A DNA stretch of 64,000 nucleotides from the NCBI GenBank assembly GCA_022813675.1, contig CP063375.1, positions 2,204,501 to 2,268,500 of the forward strand, in the 5' to 3' direction. Source of the DNA: Deferribacteraceae bacterium V6Fe1. Lineage in GTDB: Bacteria > Chrysiogenota > Deferribacteres > Deferribacterales > Deferrivibrionaceae. Below are positions 13,584 through 61,053 of this stretch, piece after piece. The notes below the pieces were generated by a model, which saw only the letters and a list, made by a program, of their open reading frames with translations, was not told the DNA's origin and searched no databases. Positions within the stretch are counted from its first letter, which is position 1. Every line of letters begins with the position of its first letter. The position numbers were made by a program, and so were the translations under genes.

Positions 13584-13600
13584 CACCCTACTAAAATTTT

Positions 13601-13674
13601 CGGGGCGTGGCGCAGCTTGGTAGCGTACACCCTTGGGGTGGGTGTGGTCGCTGGTTCAAATCCAGTCGCCCCGA
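13601..13674 (+). tRNA. tRNA-Pro(GGG)
   Basis: The 74 bases fold as a full cloverleaf. The acceptor is CGGGGCG paired with CGCCCCG plus discriminator A; the D arm is GCGC/GCGT. The anticodon stem CACCC/GGGTG encloses the loop TTGGGGT with anticodon GGG at 13635-13637, and the T arm carries TTCAAAT. No CCA is encoded. It is the last core gene before the accessory island. Confidence 0.95.
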
Positions 13675-13770
13675 TTATTATTACTTAATATCAATTTAAT
13701 TATTATTTTTATATGTTTCAGCTCTTACAATTTTCAGACAAATCAAATCACTATTGATTAATTTAAATAA

Positions 13771-13789
13771 ACCCTAAAAACTAAGATGT
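13771..13789 (+). repeat. 19-bp direct repeat, left end of island
   Basis: ACCCTAAAAACTAAGATGT occurs here and again, same orientation and exact, at 28664-28682. Each copy abuts the outer end of a long inverted repeat, as a target-site duplication or attachment-site core would. Confidence 0.75.
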
Positions 13790-14082
13790 GTCAAAGCCAA
13801 TTAAAAATCCCAACCTTATGGCCCATAAAATTCCCCAGTGGTGTTTATATTTCCTTTGTGAAGGCCATTTGAGCAAGAGCAAAAAATATATTTAGGATTA
13901 AATCTTGCTTTAAGAGGCGGAGGATTGTGAGATGCCTTGTAAGGAAGTTTGAGTCACTTAAGGCGATAAGATAAGTTATTATTTAGAATTAGGAGAAAAA
14001 AGACAGGCTATTAATTGGTTAGAAAATATGAAAAGAAAGTAAAATGTACTCGTGGTATAAGGGTGCAAAAAATTGGGTGACG
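13790..14082 (+). repeat. Left copy of ~290-bp inverted repeat
   Basis: It matches the reverse complement of 28373-28663 at roughly nine positions in ten, with small indels. Similarity runs from GTCAAAG next to the direct repeat to GGGTGACG at 14075-14082, then stops abruptly. Inside, pieces of a protein-like frame remain (IYLGLNLALRGGGL, then ISYYLELGEKRQAINWLENM) separated by stops and shifts, so the repeat seems to carry a decayed gene fragment, perhaps TPR-like. The rest of the gap 13675-14157 shows nothing else. Confidence 0.8.
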
Positions 14083-14157
14083 ACAACTTCTATTATCATT
14101 GACAAAAAATTGAATCAAATGTTAAAATGACATATTACTAATTGTTTTGGGGGAGTT

Positions 14158-17100
14158 TTGAGTAACTTTATAACTAATCAGCCGGAAAAAATTCTTAAGA
14201 GCAGGCTAAATACTCTTATAAGCGTAAGTAATGAATTAAAATTTCTTGTTGGCTTCTTTTACTTCTCTGGTGTTCAAGAGCTTTACGAATCTTTGAAAAG
14301 AAACAACAATTTTACTTTAAAAATACTTGTCGGGCTTAGCGTAGATCAACTCAATGGTCAAATATTTGAAAATACTTATGAAAATCTTACAAGTGATCAT
14401 GAGATTGTGGAATTGTATCTAAAAAGTGTCAAGCAAGCCATTAATACAGATGAATTTGACAGCAAAGTGTTTAATGAACAAGTTGAGTTTTTCATCAATT
14501 TGATTATTCAAAATCGCATAATAATTAGAAAAACAAGTTTTCCAAATCATGCAAAGCTTTATTTATTTAAGCTCAACGACACACAGGTGGGCAGAAAAAA
14601 TATTTTTATAACAGGAAGTAGTAACCTTACAAAAGCGGGTGTGCTATCTCAAGATGAATTTAATGTAGAAATATCTGATTATGGATTTGAGGAAGCAGAA
14701 AAATATTTTGACAATTTGTGGGAAACCAGTATCCCTTTGACGGAAGACGCCATTTTAAAAGATACTCTGATAAATATAATTTATGAATCGACTCACTTGA
14801 AAAAAGTTACCCCATTTGAAGCCTATTGTTTTACATTAAAGTCATATTTGGATGAATTTGAAAATAAAATTGACTTACCCATTGATATAATTCTTGAAAA
14901 AAGTGGCTATAAGAGTTTTTCTTACCAAATAGATGCAGTAAAACAAGCCCTATCTGTAATAGAAAAACATCGAGGCGTCATTATTGCAGATGTAGTTGGC
15001 CTTGGTAAAACAGTTATAGCAAGTGCCATAGCAAAATCATTAAATAAAAGGGGAATAGTTATTGCTCCGCCTGGACTTGTTGGTGATGAAAATAATAAAT
15101 CAGGTTGGCGGAAATATTTAGAAGATTTTGAACTATATGACTGGAGTGTAAGGTCTTTAGGTAAGCTGGAAGAGACTTTGGAGTTTGTGAAAGAGAGAGG
15201 CGATATAGAAGTAGTCATTGTTGATGAGGTCCATAGGTTTAGAAATCAAGATACAAAAGATTACGATCTATTACAAAAGATATGCAGAGGCAAAATAGTA
15301 ATTTTGCTAACAGCAACGCCATTTAACAACAAGCCATCGGACATATTTGCTCTGATAAAGCTTTTTATTACCCCAAAAAAATCATCCATAACAATTGAAA
15401 ATAATATCGACTCTATTTTTAGGGTACTTGAAAATACTTTTAAAGATCTAACCTACATAAAAAGGTATTTTAATCATCCTGATATTAAAAAACAGGAAAA
15501 TGCCTTAAAAAAATATAAAAGAATATACAATTCCGACATCATAGACTTAAACACAGTCAACAATGACATTAAAAGTATATCCAAAAATATTAAAACTATC
15601 CTTGAGCCAATAATCATCAGAAGAAATAGGATAGATTTGAAAAGAAATGAAAAATATAAAAAGGAGATAAAAACTCTTTCGGAAGTAAAAGACCCGATAG
15701 AATGGTATTTTGAATTGAATGATGAGCAAAACGATTTTTATGACAAAATCATAACAGAATACTTTGCCGACGCAGAGCTAAACGGTAAATTCAGAGGTGC
15801 AATATACAGGCCTTATGAATATGAAGAAGGTCTGATAGAGACTGAACATCTTGACGGCACAAAAATTGAGAAACTTCTTGACTTTCAACAACAGAGAAAC
15901 CTTTTTGATTTTATGAGAAGACTTGTGGTAAGAAGATTTGAAAGCTCTTTTGGAGCTTTTAAAAAAACCGTAGAAAATTTTAAAAGGGTTCACGAAATAG
16001 TCTTAGAGTTTGTAAATAAAACAGGGAAATACATTCTTGATAGAGATTTAATAGAAAAAATATATGAAATGGATAGCGATGAGATTGAAGCTCATCTTGA
16101 AGAATACAAAAATAATATATTAAATGGTGTTTACCCTAAAAAACATAAAATTTATGAAGTGAGTAAGTTTAAAAATAAAAATTTCTTAAAGCATATATCA
16201 GAAGACATAATGCTTTTTGAGTCTGTCCTTGAAGATATTGAAGCACTTAAGCTTGTTCATAGTGACCCTAAAACAAAATGCATAATTGATAATATAAAGA
16301 TTTCCTTGGAAAAGGAGCCAAAGAGAAAAATAATAATCTTTTCCGAGTTTGTAGATACTGTAAAATATCTTGAACCTGTTTTTTCCAATACATTTAACAA
16401 CAAAGTGTTAGTAGTGGCCGGTAATATTTCTAATAATAAGATTGATGAAATTTACCAAAATTTTGACGCCAGCTATAAAACACAAAAAGATGACTATCTT
16501 ATCCTTCTTTGTACTGACAAAATTTCAGAAGGTTTTAACTTAAATAGAGCCGGTATGGTCATAAATTATGACATACCTTGGAACCCGGTTAGGGTAATAC
16601 AAAGGCTTGGCCGAATCAATAGGATTGGCAAAAAAGTATTTGAAAGCCTTTATATCGTAAACTTTTTCCCCACAAAAAAAGGTGGAGATATCGTTCAATC
16701 AAGAGAGATTGCGCAAAACAAAATGTTTATGATACATAATACCTTGGGAGAAGATGCCAAAATATTTGATGAAAGCGAAGAGGTATCTCCATCGATGCTT
16801 TTTGATAAAGTCATGGCAAATCCTGAAGCTATGGAAGAAGAAAGCTTTTACACAAAAGTTTATAATAAATTTTCAGAAATCAAAAAGCTTTATCCGGAAG
16901 TCGTAGAAAAAGTAAAGACTTTCCCCACAAGGGTAAAAACAGCAAAACAGTTCACGGAAGACAATTTAATAGTATTTATGCGCAAAAATGCCCTTTATGC
17001 CATGGTGTATGATTACACAAACAGCGAGTTAAAAATTACTTCGTTTGAGGATGTATTCGACAAGGTGGAAGTTGACTACGATGAAAAACGTCTTGAACTT

Positions 17101-17484
17101 AGTGATAAATTTTGGAATGCATATGATAGTATCAGAAATTACAAAGAGAAAAATATAATGGGCACATCTGCCCAAAGTATAGAAAAAAAAGCATATAATG
17201 TTATAAATTATGCACTTAAAACAAAAAATGAAATGTTTCGCCCCCTAAAAAAGTTTTTGAGCACACTTAAAAATGACCTTACAAACTATGGGACATTATC
17301 TGATTATACCCTTAGACGAATTGCTAATCTTGAGAATAAAAAAGATGATGTTATTGCAAATGAGCTCGAAGTTTTAAAAAATGAGCTTGGGGAAGACTAT
17401 CTTTCAGAAGAATCTAAAAAATCTCACTCTTTAAAAAAAGAGATTATTATAGCAATAGAAAATATAGCTCCGCCAATTACTTAA
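14158..17484 (+). CDS. PLD-nuclease/SNF2-type helicase fusion, predicted restriction subunit
   Basis: The protein has 1108 residues. The N-terminal part (about 1-220) is a phospholipase-D-like domain with HAKLYLF (HxK at residues 131-133) and the following ITGSSNLTKAG. A superfamily 2 helicase follows: Walker A DVVGLGKT near residue 280, VVIVDEVHRF (DEVH) near 355, LLTATPFNN near 384, and a C-terminal helicase domain with IPWNPVRVIQRLGRINRIG near 806-822. Single HxK domains of this type usually dimerise to cut DNA. It starts at TTG behind GGGGGAG. A methyltransferase gene follows after 15 bases, so a restriction role is inferred. It lacks the DUF1998 partners of DISARM. Confidence 0.82.
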   Translation: MSNFITNQPEKILKSRLNTLISVSNELKFLVGFFYFSGVQELYESLKRNNNFTLKILVGLSVDQLNGQIFENTYENLTSDHEIVELYLKSVKQAINTDEFDSKVFNEQVEFFINLIIQNRIIIRKTSFPNHAKLYLFKLNDTQVGRKNIFITGSSNLTKAGVLSQDEFNVEISDYGFEEAEKYFDNLWETSIPLTEDAILKDTLINIIYESTHLKKVTPFEAYCFTLKSYLDEFENKIDLPIDIILEKSGYKSFSYQIDAVKQALSVIEKHRGVIIADVVGLGKTVIASAIAKSLNKRGIVIAPPGLVGDENNKSGWRKYLEDFELYDWSVRSLGKLEETLEFVKERGDIEVVIVDEVHRFRNQDTKDYDLLQKICRGKIVILLTATPFNNKPSDIFALIKLFITPKKSSITIENNIDSIFRVLENTFKDLTYIKRYFNHPDIKKQENALKKYKRIYNSDIIDLNTVNNDIKSISKNIKTILEPIIIRRNRIDLKRNEKYKKEIKTLSEVKDPIEWYFELNDEQNDFYDKIITEYFADAELNGKFRGAIYRPYEYEEGLIETEHLDGTKIEKLLDFQQQRNLFDFMRRLVVRRFESSFGAFKKTVENFKRVHEIVLEFVNKTGKYILDRDLIEKIYEMDSDEIEAHLEEYKNNILNGVYPKKHKIYEVSKFKNKNFLKHISEDIMLFESVLEDIEALKLVHSDPKTKCIIDNIKISLEKEPKRKIIIFSEFVDTVKYLEPVFSNTFNNKVLVVAGNISNNKIDEIYQNFDASYKTQKDDYLILLCTDKISEGFNLNRAGMVINYDIPWNPVRVIQRLGRINRIGKKVFESLYIVNFFPTKKGGDIVQSREIAQNKMFMIHNTLGEDAKIFDESEEVSPSMLFDKVMANPEAMEEESFYTKVYNKFSEIKKLYPEVVEKVKTFPTRVKTAKQFTEDNLIVFMRKNALYAMVYDYTNSELKITSFEDVFDKVEVDYDEKRLELSDKFWNAYDSIRNYKEKNIMGTSAQSIEKKAYNVINYALKTKNEMFRPLKKFLSTLKNDLTNYGTLSDYTLRRIANLENKKDDVIANELEVLKNELGEDYLSEESKKSHSLKKEIIIAIENIAPPIT

Positions 17485-17499
17485 GCTTAAGAGGTAGTT

Positions 17500-20400
17500 A
17501 TGAATGAAAAAGAGTTGTTAAAAGAGATCATAGGAAATTTTAATATAGAAAAATGGAATGCTTTTTTTAGCAGAAAAAATAGAAAATTTAAAAAAGAAAC
17601 AGACTTCCCGGAGCTTATTAATTACGGTTTTTCATCTTTTACCAATGGCTTAAAACACGGCATCATCCCCATTGAAGACGATGAGCTTTTAATCTCTTCT
17701 TTTAAAGTTACAAAAAGCCTTACCGAGCGATCAGGCAAAAAAGAGCAATATGAGCTTGCCAAAAAAATACTCAAAGAAGACTTAACATTTTTAGGCGGAA
17801 TATTTATTTTCTATGATGAAAATGGTAATTTTAGATTTTCACTTATCACCAAAATATACGAAAGGACATCAAAAGGTATCAAACAAAGCTTTACCAGCTT
17901 TAAGCGATATACCTATTTTGTGTCAAAAGAGTTAACCAATAAAACATTTATCGAACAGATTTCAAGCGCCGACTTTACAAGCTTAGAAAAAATCATTTCT
18001 GCTTTCAGTGTAAAAAAAGTTACAGAAGAATTTTACAAAGAACTTTCCAATTGGTACCACTATAGTTTGGATAAAATTAAATTTCCTGCCGATTTGGAAG
18101 AGATGAAAAATGATGACAAAAGAAATGCCGTCAATCTTATAAGGCTCATTACCAGAATTATCTTCATATGGTTTTTAAAAGAAAAAGATCTCATCCCTAA
18201 AGTAATCTTTGATAAAGACTTTGTGGCAAATATATTAAAAGATTTTAACAAAGATCATAACAGCCATTATTACTACAACGCCATCCTTCAAAATCTATTT
18301 TTTGGCACACTAAACAGACCGATGAATGACAGAAAATTTGCCAAAAAAGGGGATTTTCAGGTAAATAAAAATGAATTTGATGTTAAAAACTTATATCGCA
18401 ACAGTGATTTTCTTACTATAACCGAAGAAGAGTTTATAAGTCTATTCCAAAAAGTCCCTTTTTTAAATGGAGGACTTTTTGAATGCCTTGATAAAGGGAG
18501 TATTTATGTAGACGGATTTTCAAGGAGAGAAAACAAGATTGCCATTGTCCCGGACTATTTGTTCTTTTCTGACGAAATGGAAGTCGACTTAAAAAGATAC
18601 GGATTTAAGCAAAAGGAAATTTTCAAAGGGCTTATAAATATCTTGCAAGAATATAACTTTACAGTCGATGAAAACTCTCCGGTAGATGAAGAGATAGCTC
18701 TTGACCCTGAGCTCTTGGGAATGGTTTTTGAAAATCTACTTGCCTCTTACAACCCTGAGACTCAAGAGACAGCTCGCAAATCTTCGGGCAGCTACTATAC
18801 GCCGAGAGAAATTGTAAATTATATGGTGGATGAAAGCTTAATAGCTTTTTTGAAAAACTATATAGATGAGCTTGCTGAGGATACTATTAGAGACATTGTA
18901 AATTATAATGAAAAAAAGATACCTATTAATAATGATGTAAAAAATAAGATTGTTCGCTGCATTGCTGATTTAAAGGTGCTTGACCCAGCGTGCGGCTCAG
19001 GTGCATTTCCAATGGGGATGCTTCACAAGTTAGTTTATATTCTCCAAAAGGTAGATGCCGATAATAAAATTTGGCAAGATATTCAGATAGAAAAAGCTAT
19101 ACTTGAGTCTGAAAAAGTATTTGCAGATACAAAGGATAAGACGGAAAGAGAAGAAATATTAAAGCAGATAAAGAAGCATTTGATGAGAGTATCAATCACC
19201 CGGACTATGCAAGAAAGCTATTTATAATAGAAAATTGCATTTATGGTGTGGATATTCAGCCGATTGCAATACAAATAAGCAAACTCAGATTTTTTATCTC
19301 CCTTGTAATAGATCAAATAGTAGATGATGAAAAGGATAATAGAGGGATACTGTCACTGCCAAACCTTGAGACAAAATTTGTAGCTGCAAATAGCTTGATC
19401 GCTCTGCTAAAACCTATGCTTACAGTGGCTGAACTTTTATCCGAAAATTACCAAGAGATAGAAAAAATAAAAGAAAAGCTTGCTGGTTTGAGGCACAGGC
19501 ACTTTTCAGTAAAAACAAGAGCTCAGAAAAAGAAACTATATGATGAATACTCTATTTTGAGGAATAGGTTAGAAAAGCTGCTTGAATCAAGTGATTTTGA
19601 GCATGAGGTGGCTCATAAGATAGCTCAATTTGATATATTTGACCAAAATAAAGTCACAGATTGGTTTGACCCAGAATGGATGTTTGGCGTTAACAGTGGC
19701 TTTGATATTGTGATTGGAAATCCGCCGTATATTCAGCTGCAAAAAAATGGTGGTGCCCTTGCAACCTTATATAAAGATAAAGGATACGAATCATTTAAAA
19801 AGACAGGCGATATTTACGTCCTTTTTTATGAAAAAGGTATAAAGCTGCTAAAAGAAGATGGTTTTTTATGCCTAATCACAAGCAACAAATGGATGCGTGC
19901 TGGTTACGGAGATAGTATAAGAAAATTTTTTACAAAATATGATCCAAAAATACTTATCGATTTAGGTCCAGGCATTTTTGAAAGCGCTACGGTGGATACA
20001 AATATTCTAATAATACAGAAGGCAAAAAATAAAAACAACTTGCATGTAGTAACATTAAAAAAAGAAAATGGCATTGATATAGCAAAGCAATTAAGAGAAA
20101 ATGGCGTTATATTGACCAAACTCACCCAAGATGCCTGGTTTATTGGTAGCGATGCCGAGCAACGCCTCAAAGAAAAAATAGAACGCATCGGCAAACCGCT
20201 TAAAGACTGGGATGTAAATATTTATTACGGAATAAAAACTGGTCTAAACGAAGCTTTTATCATTACCACCGAAAAACGGAACGAAATTTTGGCAAACTGT
20301 AAGGACGAAGCCGAACGCCAACGCACCAAAGCCATCATAAAACCAATTTTGCGGGGCAGAGACATCAAGCGGTATTACTACGAGTGGGCAGGGCTGTGGG

Positions 20401-21023
20401 TGATAGGCACTTTTCCTGCATTGCGATTGAATATAGATGATTATCCTGTTTTGAAAAATTATTTTCTTGACCATTTTGATATATGCCAATTAGAACAATC
20501 AGGCAAAAAATATCCTGAACTTGGATTTAATGCACGCAAAAAAACAGGCAACAAATGGTTTGAAACGCAAGACCAAATTGCCTACTACCCCGAGTTTGAG
20601 AAGGAGAAGGTGGTGTACCCCAATATGACAAAGTTTTTACCATTTGTTTATGATAATAACGGCTATTTTACAAATCAGAAATGTTTTATATTAGTTTCAA
20701 AATCAACACCATTAAAGTTTCTCACAGGATACTTTAACTCAAAAATAGCTGGTAAATGGATTAGAGATAACTGCCCTGAATTACAAGGTGGCACGAGAGA
20801 ATTAAGTTATATCTTTTTTCAGAACATTCCCCTTCCACCCATCACTCCTGCCAACAAGCCGCTGGTAAGGCGTATAGAAGAGTTGGTGGATAAGATATTG
20901 GCGGCAAAGAAAGAGCACCCACAGGCGAATACGAGCGAGTGGGAGCGGGAAATCGATAAGATTGTTTATCAACTTTATAAGTTAACCGATGAAGAAATAG
21001 AAATAATTGAGGGAGGGAAATAA
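17500..21023 (+). pseudogene. Eco57I/PglX-like DNA adenine methyltransferase, split by a -1 frameshift
   Basis: Two frames make one N6-adenine methyltransferase of about 1174 residues. The first (17500-19227) has the helical N-terminal region, SSGSYYTPREIVNYMVDESL, and SAM motif I as DPACGSGAFPMGML near residue 495. The second continues from about 19173 with ESINHPDYARKLFIIENCIYGVDIQ, contains the catalytic motif VIGNPPYIQLQ, and ends with a TaqI-like specificity domain (WFETQDQIAYY, QGGTRELSYIFFQNIPLPP). Loss of one A in the run at 19170-19172 accounts for the shift. The break separates the SAM-binding and catalytic motifs, so the enzyme would be inactive unless the shift is an assembly error or is bypassed. 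About 20.1-20.6 kb is less AT-rich than its surroundings. Confidence 0.82.
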
Positions 21024-21024
21024 T

Positions 21025-23288
21025 ATGATAAACAAAATTGTAATCAATAATGCTGCCACATTTACACAAGAGACAATTATTAATCTGAAGAAAATTAATT
21101 TCTTTCATGGTTCTAATGGTACTGGAAAGTCAACCATTTCAAGAATTTTAGCAAGTCCAAATAATTTTTCTGCATGTAAAATAAACTGGTTAAATAATAG
21201 AGAAATCAAAACAATCGTTTTTAATGAGGATTTTACTAGAAGGTCTTTTTATGAAAAAGACAAGTTAAATGGCATATATACCATCGGAGAAAGCGCAAGT
21301 CATATAGAAGAACAAATTAATCAGAAAAAACAAGATTTTGGAAAAACAAATGAAGAACTAAATAAATTAAAAGCAACCAAAGGGAAAAAAGATGATGAAA
21401 AGAAAAAAAACTTTAATGACTTCAAAGAAAAATGCTGGGATGGTGGATATCTGAAATTACAAAACGATTTTGATTCCTTCTTTACAGGTTACAAAAAAGA
21501 TAAAGAAAAACTTGCTAATAAGATATTAGAAGAATCAGAAACTAATAATGCTTCTTTATTAAGTAAAGATGACTTAAAGAAGAAATATGATTTAATTTAT
21601 AATAAAGATACCCAAAAAATAGAAAATATACCATTATTCCAACTCGATGAAATTACGAAAATAGAAGAAGAACAAGATATACTAAATACCAGCATAATAG
21701 GTAAAAGCGATGTTGATATTGCCAGAATGATTGAGAAATTACATAATTATGATTGGGTTAAGCGAGGTAAGGAATTTTATGAAAATAATTATGATGAAGG
21801 ATTAAATGCTTATATCTGTCCATTTTGTCAGCAACAAACACCAGAAAATTTTAGAAAACAATTAGAAGAGTATTTTGATGAGACATACCAAGAAAATATT
21901 AAAAAACTTAATTCTTTTATTCAACATTATAAATCGACAACAGATGATATTTCAAACAAGGTAAAACAAATAATAGATTCTAACAACCAATATCTTGAAG
22001 ATAAGAAAAAAACTCTATCAGACAAAAAGGATGTTTTGGAAGGTTTAATCAATCAAAACCTTCAGTTATTGGAACAAAAACATACTAATCCAAGCGAAAA
22101 AATAGAATTAAAGCCAATTTCTCCTACTTTAAATGAAATAAATGAAATACTTGAAGAAGTAAATAAAAATATTAAACAACACAATAATTTAATTGATAAT
22201 AAACGTAATGAAAAGGATATATTAGATAAAGCAATTTGGAAATATATTGTCAATCAATTAAAAAGTGATATTGATTCATACAATGAGAAAAAAAGTGAAA
22301 TATACAAAGCAATACAAAGCTTAGAAACTCAAATAAAAGCTAATAGTAATAAAGAAACAGAATAAAATATGAAATAGGAGAACTAGAAAAACAAATAAAA
22401 AGTGTAAAACCGACAGTTGATAATATAAATAGATTACTTGAGAACTTTGGGTTTAAAGGATTCAAACTACAACCGACAGAAGATGAAAAACATTATCAAG
22501 TTATAAGAAATGATGGGTCTGATGCAAAAAAGACTTTAAGTGAAGGCGAGCGTAATTTCTTGATATTTTTATATTTTTATCATATTATCAACGGTGTTGA
22601 GAATCCTGAAGAAAATATTAATCAAGATAAAATTTTAATAATAGACGATCCTGTTTCAAGTCTCGATTCAGATGTTTTATTTATAGTTTCAAGTTTAATT
22701 AAAGATCTTTTACATAAAGCACGCCAAAATATTGGTAATGTAAAACAGGTTATTATTCTTACCCATAATGCATATTTCTTTAAGGAAATTACTTTCATTT
22801 CATCAAGAGTATCCTGTTACGACAAGAGAGATGATACATGTTACTTTATTATAAGAAAGCAAAATAACGTAAGTCATATAGAAAATTACGATACGTGTCC
22901 TATCAAAACCAGTTATCAATTGTTATGGGATGATATTAAAAATGCAAATATGGATTGTGTTTCTATGCAGAATTCCATGAGAAGAATTATAGAATTTTAT
23001 TTTAGGTTTTTAGGTAATTTAAAAGAGGATGATTTGATAAATAAATTTGAAGGAAATGATAAAATATTATGTAAAAGTTTAATATCTTATATTAATGAAG
23101 GTTCGCATAGCATTATTGATGATTACAATATGATTATTTCCCATGAACAAATTGAAGCATATAAAGTTGTTTTTAAAATGATTTTTCAGGTAACTGGACA
23201 TTTAGAACATTATAATATGATGATGAATGAAAAAAAGAAGGAGGAGAGTCATAAATCGCGAGTTGGAGAGTATACTGAAAATGTATAA
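21025..23288 (+). pseudogene. RloC-type ABC-ATPase / anticodon-nuclease candidate, split by a -1 frameshift
   Basis: Two frames give one protein of about 754 residues. Frame one has Walker A HGSNGTGKSTISRIL near residue 32, long coiled coils, and a zinc-hook-like CPFC near residue 264. Frame two, joined at about 22360, supplies LSEGERNFL (ABC signature), Walker B ILIIDDPVSSLD and VIILTHN. It ends in a region with RRIIE and, about 40 residues on, EGSH. The order ABC head, zinc hook, ABC head and a C-terminal R-x3-E...H triad is that of RloC, a tRNA-cutting suicide enzyme often housed near restriction-modification genes. Adding one A after GAA at 22360-22362 restores the frame. ATG 21025 has GGAGGG before it. 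Confidence 0.72.
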
Positions 23289-23303
23289 ATTAAGATAAAA
23301 AAT

Positions 23304-24422
23304 ATGAAAACAGAAGAACTCAAAAATCATCAAGCTTTTAAAATTGTTCAACAAATCAGAGACAGATTATCGCAAGAAGATGCTAACAAACTTCAAATTG
23401 AACATAGGGAGTTTATTCTTGATGCTATATCTTATTTTGATTTGCGAGTTAATATCAGTATAAGTTCTTTAATAAACGTTTCTCAACTTAACCAGATACA
23501 GAACTATTTCCAGAATTCATTGACTGAAATAAATAATTTTTTTGTAGATGGAAATTATGGACATGTCAATAATGCCTTATCACACATAAATAATGCAATA
23601 TCAATCATAAATCAATTTCCTTTAACTATCCCACAAGAAACAAAGGATTTATCAGATATTGTAAATAATTTCAGAACTATTATTCAATCAGAAGAAGACC
23701 AAATTAAAAAAAGCATAGGAGATTTAAAAAATCAAATAAATCCTATAAATAATCAATTAACTCAAATACAACAAAATATTGCTAATCAGCAGAATCAATC
23801 CATTCAACTTACACAAACTTTTCAAAATGAGTTTAATAAATTAAAACAAAAACTAACTAATGATATTGAAGACGCAACAAATAAAATACTTCAAGAGTCA
23901 AGTGAAATAAATAAAAAATTAAATTCAAAATTAGAAGAAGCAAAGAAAATAGTAAATATTATTGGGAATATTGGCGTTACTGGAGGTTACCAAAAAAATG
24001 CAGAATATCACAAAAAACAAGCTAATTTATGGAGATGGATAGCAATAATTATTATGCTATTGTCTATTGCCTATTTAGGATATTCAGTATTTACAATATC
24101 ACAATATGAATGGCATATTTCCTTATTAAGAATTATTTCAACGGCATTATTTATATACCCTGCTCAATATGCAGCCAGTCAATCAAGTAAACATCGTGAA
24201 CAGGAGTTTTATAATAAAAAGATGGAATTAGACCTTTCCGCCATTAATCCATTTATAGAATTGTTTGATGACAAGAAGAAGCAAGAAATTAAAGAAAAAT
24301 TAGTAGAAAAATATTTTAATAGTAATAACTTAAGCATTAATAAAACAGAATCTGATGTGCCTATTACAATTTATGAAAAAATAGTTAATCAGTTCATAAG
24401 CATTATCAAATCTATCAAATAA
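23304..24422 (+). CDS. Coiled-coil membrane protein, unknown function
   Basis: The 372-residue protein is mostly helical and rich in Gln, Asn and Lys. Coiled coil is likely between about residues 120 and 220 (repeated QLTQIQQNIANQQNQ-like heptads). Two membrane segments follow (WRWIAIIIMLLSIAYLGYSVF near 242-262 and LLRIISTALFIYPAQYAA near 273-291), then a cytosolic tail containing QEFYNKKMELDLSAINPFIELF. It lies 15 bases after the RloC-like gene and has no strong ribosome site, so the two are probably co-expressed. I do not recognise the family. A membrane partner behind an ATPase resembles several defence pairs, which makes an effector or anchor role possible. Confidence 0.7.
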   Translation: MKTEELKNHQAFKIVQQIRDRLSQEDANKLQIEHREFILDAISYFDLRVNISISSLINVSQLNQIQNYFQNSLTEINNFFVDGNYGHVNNALSHINNAISIINQFPLTIPQETKDLSDIVNNFRTIIQSEEDQIKKSIGDLKNQINPINNQLTQIQQNIANQQNQSIQLTQTFQNEFNKLKQKLTNDIEDATNKILQESSEINKKLNSKLEEAKKIVNIIGNIGVTGGYQKNAEYHKKQANLWRWIAIIIMLLSIAYLGYSVFTISQYEWHISLLRIISTALFIYPAQYAASQSSKHREQEFYNKKMELDLSAINPFIELFDDKKKQEIKEKLVEKYFNSNNLSINKTESDVPITIYEKIVNQFISIIKSIK

Positions 24423-59540: not shown

Positions 59541-59963
59541 ATGAATACAAGTACAAAGTTAAATATACTTAAAGAAGTGCTTACTTCCGTTGAAAAAGTG
59601 TATCTCCATATAATGGCGCACCCTGATCTTTTTATAGGGAAAAGGGGATTAATAGGCAAGGAGAATGAAGAGGGGATTGTTTTGGTCTTCGGGCATCAAT
59701 CATATAAAAATCTCGAATATGAAGACAATTTTATTTATGTGGATATGAGATTTTCTGGAAAATGGGAAAGTTTGGCAATACCCGTATCTGCCGTTACAAC
59801 CGTATTTGATTCTCCGGTAGCACCTACATTTGTCTTCAACTTTAATGTGCCTAACATAGAAGGCAAAAATACGAAAACCCAAAAGGGAACCTTAAACAAT
59901 AAAAAAGAAAAACAACAAAACCAAAACGGCAAAGTAATCAAAATAGATTTTAAAAAGGAATAA
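59541..59963 (+). CDS. SspB-like ClpXP adaptor protein (predicted)
   Basis: The 140-residue protein has a core that fits the SspB fold: GIVLVFGHQSYKNLEYEDNFIYVDMRFSGK, then SLAIPVSAVTTVFDSP and PTFVFNF. In SspB the matching text is a strand pair, (A/M)RF(G/S)G, IPxxAVxAIY, and a following Phe. A flexible Asn/Gln/Lys linker ends in GKVIKIDFKKE, which resembles the ClpX-binding tail of alpha-proteobacterial SspB (VVSLDxFRKK). It would deliver ssrA-tagged proteins to ClpXP. It is followed after 1 base by an MscS gene. The similarity is by eye only. Confidence 0.6.
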   Translation: MNTSTKLNILKEVLTSVEKVYLHIMAHPDLFIGKRGLIGKENEEGIVLVFGHQSYKNLEYEDNFIYVDMRFSGKWESLAIPVSAVTTVFDSPVAPTFVFNFNVPNIEGKNTKTQKGTLNNKKEKQQNQNGKVIKIDFKKE

Positions 59964-59964
59964 G

Positions 59965-61053
59965 ATGGAACTTTATAATGATTTAAAAGAACTTCTCGAA
60001 TATACCATACTGAATGTAAAGCTCAAGCAGTTACTTATATTTTTTGGAATAATATTTTTAGCGTTATTCTTTAAGCAAATCATCACAAAAATCATTCTCG
60101 GTCGCCTAAAAAAGATTGCATCTAAAACCAAAACCGAAGTTGATGATGAACTGATAGATGCTTTGGAACAACCCTTAAAACTATCCGTAGTAATAGCAGG
60201 TTTTTACATAGCTTTTTCTACTATATATTTGCCTGACAATGCAAAAACCCTTGTAAACCATATCATTAATTCTTTATTTATATATGCAGTATTCTGGGGG
60301 ATTTATCGATGTGAGACACTTTTAGACAGAGTCATTGAAAAATTTTTGAAAAACAGAGATTTTGAACTTGTATCAAGTTTTCTCCCATTTATCAGTAAAT
60401 TTATTAAAACAACAATAATAATTTTTGGAGTTATATTCATTGTTCAGGAATGGGGCTACAATGTGGGAGCTCTTATCACAGGGCTTGGTATTGGTGGTGT
60501 AGCCGTTGCCTTGGCAGCAAAAGATACCCTTGCCAATCTTTTTGGAAGCATAATGATTTTAATAGACAGGCCTTTTAAAATAGGTGACTGGGTGATTATA
60601 AACGACATTGAAGGTATTGTGGAAGATATAGGTTTTAGGAGCACCCGCATCAGGACATTTGCAAAAGCTCTTGTCAGCGTCCCAAATTCCATAGTAGCGA
60701 CTACAGCCATAACAAACTGGTCAATGAGGGACAGAAGAAGAATAAATTTCAATATCGGTGTTACATATTCTACACCTCGAAATTTACTTGAAAAGGCAGT
60801 AAAAGAGATAGATCAAATGTTAAGGTTGCACCCGCAAATCCATAAAGACCCTTTGATGGTATATTTTACAGATTTTAAGGCAAGTAGCCTCGATATTTTT
60901 ATCTACTGCTTTGCGACTACGGCAGAATGGGCTAAGTATCTTGAGATTAAACAAGATGTAAATTTAAAAATCATGGAAATATTAGAAAATCTCGGTATAG
61001 ATTTTGCATTTAACTCTATGTCTGTTTATATTGAGAAAACACCTGAAAAATAG
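59965..61053 (+). CDS. Mechanosensitive channel, MscS family (second copy)
   Basis: The 362-residue protein has four or more membrane helices and the MscS core: GALITGLGIGGVAVALAAKDTLANLFGSIMILIDRPFKIGDWVII, then VEDIGFRSTRIRTFAKALVSVPNSIV. It has an extra N-terminal membrane region compared with the 58.6-kb copy and belongs to the YbdG/YnaI-like larger group. It probably opens at a different tension. Confidence 0.92.
   Translation: MELYNDLKELLEYTILNVKLKQLLIFFGIIFLALFFKQIITKIILGRLKKIASKTKTEVDDELIDALEQPLKLSVVIAGFYIAFSTIYLPDNAKTLVNHIINSLFIYAVFWGIYRCETLLDRVIEKFLKNRDFELVSSFLPFISKFIKTTIIIFGVIFIVQEWGYNVGALITGLGIGGVAVALAAKDTLANLFGSIMILIDRPFKIGDWVIINDIEGIVEDIGFRSTRIRTFAKALVSVPNSIVATTAITNWSMRDRRRINFNIGVTYSTPRNLLEKAVKEIDQMLRLHPQIHKDPLMVYFTDFKASSLDIFIYCFATTAEWAKYLEIKQDVNLKIMEILENLGIDFAFNSMSVYIEKTPEK

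Follow-up and report, generated by a model that had tools for sequence, protein, structure and literature searches.

SspB is a textbook protease-steering adaptor that is also in use as a tool for induced degradation and for light-controlled dimers and, in the excerpted part of a review, is said to be found only in certain proteobacteria (PMC8138137). Excerpted sources further state that SspB of Escherichia coli binds AANDENY, one half of the ssrA tag AANDENYALAA (PMC8512704), that the XB tail of SspB binds the zinc-binding domain of ClpX (PMC8138137), and that in Pseudomonas aeruginosa SspB this binding is carried by tail residues 128-135 (PMC13251409). Among solved structures, the SspB orthologue of Caulobacter crescentus (2qas, 2qaz) is the nearest in sequence to the protein described here, and its fold is that of the predicted model. 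The same fold is present in Agrobacterium AGR_C_3712 (2nys), which is taken as an SspB orthologue on the strength of a profile match. Both come from another phylum than the present host, and their identity to the protein under study is 19-20% in structural alignments.

The window, that is, the whole stretch of DNA analyzed (64,000 nucleotides), stems from a host outside Proteobacteria, a member of the phylum Deferribacterota whose genome is a single contig of 2,358,333 bases. It contains the following features:

59541..59963, + strand: sspB open reading frame, ATG at 59541, stop ending at 59963, 140 aa; predicted ClpXP adaptor
59541..59858, + strand: folded SspB domain, residues 1-106, delimited by pLDDT and the span of structural matches; predicted ssrA-tag binder
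within 59541..59858, + strand: N-terminal helix, residues 3-16, followed by strands, as seen in the predicted model
59859..59927, + strand: variable linker, residues 107-129, predicted to be disordered (low pLDDT, low identity)
59928..59957, + strand: predicted ClpX-docking (XB-type) tail GKVIKIDFKK, residues 130-139, from conservation in relatives
59965..61053, + strand: MscS-type mechanosensitive channel with Pfam MS_channel domains, starting 1 base after the sspB stop

The first-pass annotation had proposed an SspB-type ClpXP adaptor from the motifs MRFSG, IPVSAV, PTFVF and VIKIDFKK, all of which are present (residues 69-73, 80-85, 95-99 and 132-139, respectively). This proposal was supported, as the protein scored above the Pfam cut-off and its predicted fold is that of SspB. 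By family, as judged from profile and predicted fold, the gene is an SspB: the curated profile PF04386 matched residues 43-127 of the 140-aa protein (E 8.7e-9) with 36 bits, exceeding the gathering score of 27. When 14 control genomes were searched for Pfam SspB, two were positive, E. coli and Caulobacter. As Pfam's current model detects the gene, routine annotation is able to find it. The NCBIfam SspB equivalogs (PRK11798, NF008762-NF008770) matched as well, but nine of nine models did so below their cut-offs (best 30.8 versus 135), and the gene is therefore not filed under one of the named SspB subgroups; such scores might fit a distant member of the family. Compared on its own with PDB sequences (phmmer), the protein matched the Caulobacter orthologue best (E 0.0018 and 0.0061), with AGR_C_3712 at E 0.93, while a profile of 20 relatives matched 13 distinct sequences at E ≤ 1, every one of them SspB, the Caulobacter orthologue or AGR_C_3712. 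The gene is a new member of an already known family, likely a ClpXP adaptor for ssrA-tagged proteins.

The AlphaFold model (single chain, alignment of 10 sequences) had a mean pLDDT of 79, with at least 90 in each ten-residue block of residues 1-100 and less than 50 at residues 107-134. Foldseek returned 19 matches with this model at E ≤ 0.001, all of which were SspB, Caulobacter orthologue or AGR_C_3712 chains; rank 20 already had an E value of 0.12. When Foldseek's own matches were re-examined with VIA-align, 12 SspB-family entries, some of them ssrA-bound, reached Z 9.7-11.7 (next fold, Z 6.1), with 98-113 residues aligned at an rmsd of 2.8-4.3 and model residues 1-106 covered; identity to solved SspB chains was 16-21% in the structural alignments. 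The substrate domain is thus predicted to adopt the SspB fold and not another one, the outcome on which the first-pass proposal depended. The solved entries 8et3, 1ox8, 1ox9, 1yfn, 1ou8 and 1ou9 are SspB of E. coli and Haemophilus influenzae, which share fold, layout, and ClpXP and tmRNA partners with the host system.

The proposed layout of a C-terminal tail after a flexible linker also withstood comparison, since the linker is modeled with low confidence and the tail is conserved. Among 20 relatives, the core (residues 19-104) had the highest mean pairwise identity, at 49%, followed by the tail (130-139) with 39% and the first helix (3-16) with 25%; in the linker (105-129), the value fell to 12%. 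When 30 Deferribacterota SspB proteins, including that of the window, were read at full length and aligned from start to tail, 28 had a tail with two residues that are branched or leucine, followed by F and by basic residues (e.g., KVIKIDFKK, KIIRHDFGKKK, NNVIQFKRK and VIVKPDFTKK, of the V-I...F type). In a profile alignment, the near-end ...KKEGSVVSLDA of AGR_C_3712 resembles KVIKIDF of the host protein. E. coli SspB ends in LRVVK, unlike these 28 proteins with their VIKxDFxKK-like tails. The remaining two (L018 and L028), from the Calditerrivibrio family, end in ILKVVK and LKIVK, and a third member of that family (G006, L146:7814-8224) in LKLIK; these LKVVK, LKIVK and LKLIK tails do resemble the E. 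coli ending. The docking peptide seems to have switched type within one order, between the Calditerrivibrio family and the other members. An open reading frame beside sspB in G006 (L146:7499-7741) consists of LSAGAA repeats and is more likely a short tandem repeat than a gene.

The partners with which an SspB would have to cooperate are encoded in the host genome: ClpX (647 bits) with its zinc-binding domain (zf-C4_ClpX, 73 bits), ClpP, and SmpB, the latter directly upstream of tmRNA. The tag encoded by this tmRNA was read as ANDELALAA and, as the alanine charged to tmRNA is added ahead of the encoded tag, becomes (A)ANDELALAA. The tag, whose ending the first-pass annotation had marked for checking, hence starts with (A)ANDEL and ends with LALAA. 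It has AANDE in common with the E. coli tag AANDENYALAA, and a bulky hydrophobic residue directly follows ANDE in the host. Because these partners are common in bacteria, they permit but do not prove SspB function. SspB placed in bacteria devoid of it works with their ClpX, according to the excerpt of one study (PMC12373786), and the ClpX zinc-binding domain is therefore not discriminating. Considering all of this, it is highly probable (roughly 0.88) that the gene encodes a true SspB, the adaptor that tethers substrates to the ClpXP protease. In this reading, (A)ANDEL, the first half of the host ssrA tag, would bind to the folded domain, the C-terminal tail would dock on ClpX, and the SspB dimer would hand tagged, unfinished proteins to ClpXP. 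We infer from the layout, the partners and the tag that the protein dimerizes, binds the tag, docks on ClpX and delivers its cargo.

The first-pass annotation had also argued that a non-proteobacterial host would widen the range of SspB, and it does so by six Deferribacterota families. A scan of named genomes yielded nine SspB loci, in Seleniivibrio, Denitrovibrio and Calditerrivibrio (genera that belong to Deferribacterota) and in four Deferribacteraceae; at one of these loci, the SspB protein is identical to that of G013, a genome from the genus of the host. Among 50 Deferribacterota genomes, 33 contained SspB at E ≤ 0.001 (24 above the Pfam cut-off), and a profile built from 20 of the 33 carriers recovered exactly these 33, each at E ≤ 7.8e-42, plus one extra genome at E 0.22 only; presence and absence are thus clear-cut. 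The carriers fall into families f1-f5 and f7, six of the ten sampled, and all 33 are in the order of the host. Within the 50 genomes searched, SspB was absent from families f6, f8, f9 and f10, from genus g12 of f7, and from the incomplete g14 genomes G046 and G047. A tree built from Deferribacterota SspB only (31 rows for the 33 SspB-bearing genomes, G007 and G042 being omitted) placed each of f1, f2, f3, f4 and f7 on its own side of a starred branch; f5 was compatible with one group. This grouping by family favors vertical inheritance within the order over a recent acquisition from a proteobacterium; an ancestor within the host's order may have received the gene by an older transfer. The scan of genome contigs with the single protein revealed no relative, and phage records gave no match. 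A search of the open-licence literature on SspB and Deferribacter revealed no report of Deferribacterota SspB proteins.

The tag was compared with the occurrence of SspB across the phylum. Of the 50 genomes, 44 gave a tmRNA match at E ≤ 1e-20, and the tag could be read in 43 of the 50 (unread were G019, G026, G028 and G045, with SspB, and G004, G032 and G047, without). SspB-bearing genomes encode ANDELALAA, ANDEYALAAA, ANDEFALAAA, ANEEFALAA, ANNEFALAA and ANNEHTLAAA. Genomes without SspB encode AEDNLALAA (four genomes), ADENLALAA, EDESLALAA, ANDSQELALAA, ANDTQELALAA, ANQTDYALAA, GKKTFSQPSLALAA, ANEENVVAAAA, ANDEQVLAAA, ANDENVLAAA and, in G046, ANDELALAA. The pattern AN[DEN]E[LYFH], which was written after the Deferribacterota tags had been seen, fits 29/29 SspB-bearing genomes with a readable tag versus 1/14 without SspB; the plainer AN[DEN]E fits 29/29 versus 4/14. 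The sole SspB-lacking genome fitting the stricter pattern is G046, which is 75% complete. Kinship leaves few independent contrasts, and this weakens the coupling: on a ClpX tree of the 40 genomes for which a ClpX row as well as a tag was available, three supported independent contrasts remained, of which two had the expected direction and one (G046) showed no difference. Without G046 (39 genomes), two of two contrasts pointed in the same direction (sign test p 0.5, a test that cannot reach 0.05 with fewer than six informative pairs); counting unsupported branches too raised the number to five or four. The coupling of tag and SspB within the phylum may thus serve as a lead, not as proof.

The weakness of these statistics once kinship is counted leaves some room for a ClpXP adaptor of the SspB family that mainly delivers one or a few specific proteins instead of ssrA-tagged ones, the tag match being a relic. 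Proteobacterial SspB does also deliver RseA and the AlgU-MucA complex, as excerpts of two sources report (PMC8138137; PMC13251409); in E. coli, it is the RseA fragment that SspB delivers. Moreover, three f10 genomes keep ANDE- or ANEE-type tags despite lacking SspB, so that a tag can begin as in E. coli without the adaptor. Still, the tags of f6, f8, f9 and g12, all without SspB, have an altered first half (ANDSQ, ANDTQ, ANQTD, ADEN, EDES, GKKTF or AEDN) but kept the ALAA end, and specific cargo is considered an unlikely main role.

Even less probable is that the SspB fold serves another job, for instance, alongside the MscS channel whose gene begins one base further downstream. The two genes adjoin in f1, f3 and f4, in seven of the 19 loci compared, plus the window, but mscS is missing beside sspB in the other 12 (f2, f5, f7), and the protein carries one or the other tail type in 12/12 of these. 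In the eight of the 12 for which the genes were listed, sspB adjoins an exonuclease-, reductase-, ABC-transporter- or MqnA-like gene instead (by sight of the sequence). As the pair is missing in 12/19 loci, mscS is not a general functional partner of sspB, and a channel partnership as the main role was rejected. That the protein is an unrelated small β-barrel of the Sm/Hfq type, matched to SspB by the common fold only, can hardly be upheld: Hfq chains do align with the model, but at Z 4.0-4.7 versus 9.7-11.7 for SspB chains, the PDB profile matches at E ≤ 1 comprise SspB-family proteins only, and Pfam SspB scores above its cut-off. With far stronger SspB matches in both sequence profile and VIA Z score, this candidate was rejected, too.

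Outside Deferribacterota, a tblastn search of 72,556 plasmid records with the window protein matched two records, both from Leptospira interrogans (E 4e-13), which revealed one further feature:

NZ_CP020413.2, 111869-112339 (L157:2408-2878): Leptospira interrogans SspB-like gene, annotated as hypothetical protein WP_000360826.1, 156 aa

The encoded protein is 38% identical to that of the window over 119 aa, contains GKRGLVGDE, GIVLVFG and WEEVFIP, and has the tail KVIQVNFGSKSKQ with KVIQVNFGSK. It thus shares the GKRGL, WE and IP elements, the KVI..NF tail and the layout with the window protein, although it belongs to another phylum and scores only 20 bits with Pfam SspB, below the 27 required. 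A phmmer comparison with the PDB gave 23 weak matches, none to SspB and none better than E 0.15, and its filing therefore rests on the likeness to the Deferribacterota proteins together with the sub-threshold Pfam score. Viral contigs searched with the Leptospira protein gave no match. In the excerpted text of a paper published in 2025 on the Clp proteins of Leptospira, the predicted tag is ANNELALAA, the adaptors named are ClpS1 and ClpS2, and SspB is mentioned twice, once as that of E. coli and once in a reference title (PMC12493166). The predicted tag fits AN[DEN]E[LYFH], a pattern that had been fixed before the Leptospira match was found. A search of the open-licence literature on SspB, Leptospira and ClpX revealed no report of this homologue, and the protein is a candidate for an unrecognized ClpXP adaptor.

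A joint reading of these observations is tentative and, in our estimate, falls slightly short of an even bet. SspB would be an old tag adaptor, present in Deferribacterota and Leptospira, rather than a proteobacterial invention, with a tail type of its own, KVIxx[DN]F followed by basic residues. The adaptor would keep the first half of the tag at AAN[DEN]E followed by a bulky residue; this half would drift once SspB is lost, and the ClpX-read end would stay. If so, Leptospira has a ClpXP adaptor that has gone unrecognized. The presence of SspB in six families and of a homologue in Leptospira makes two questions testable, namely, whether SspB shapes that half of the tmRNA tag which binds the adaptor, and how far back the clearing of tagged proteins through adaptors reaches. 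Stable SspB modules could conceivably come from heat-loving Deferribacterota.

The ClpX zinc-binding domain of the SspB-lacking genus g12 (L133-L136, G033-G036) reads like EEVDRLVSGIDSSCICNHC, that of the host like DEVKKLIAGPDVFICDEC. It is possible that the g12 domain drifted after loss of the adaptor, with G049 as a counterexample: this genome also lacks SspB and retains EEVKKLIAGPNVYICDEC in the domain. Elsewhere in the window, a defence-like cluster with a PLD/SNF2-type helicase follows a tRNA-Pro gene (13600-24422; PADLOC). The matches to a type IIG restriction-methylase and to PDC-S06 are each split over two open reading frames there (17500-19227 and 19248-21023, and 21007-22365 and 22560-23288, respectively; PADLOC), which suggests that these genes are broken.
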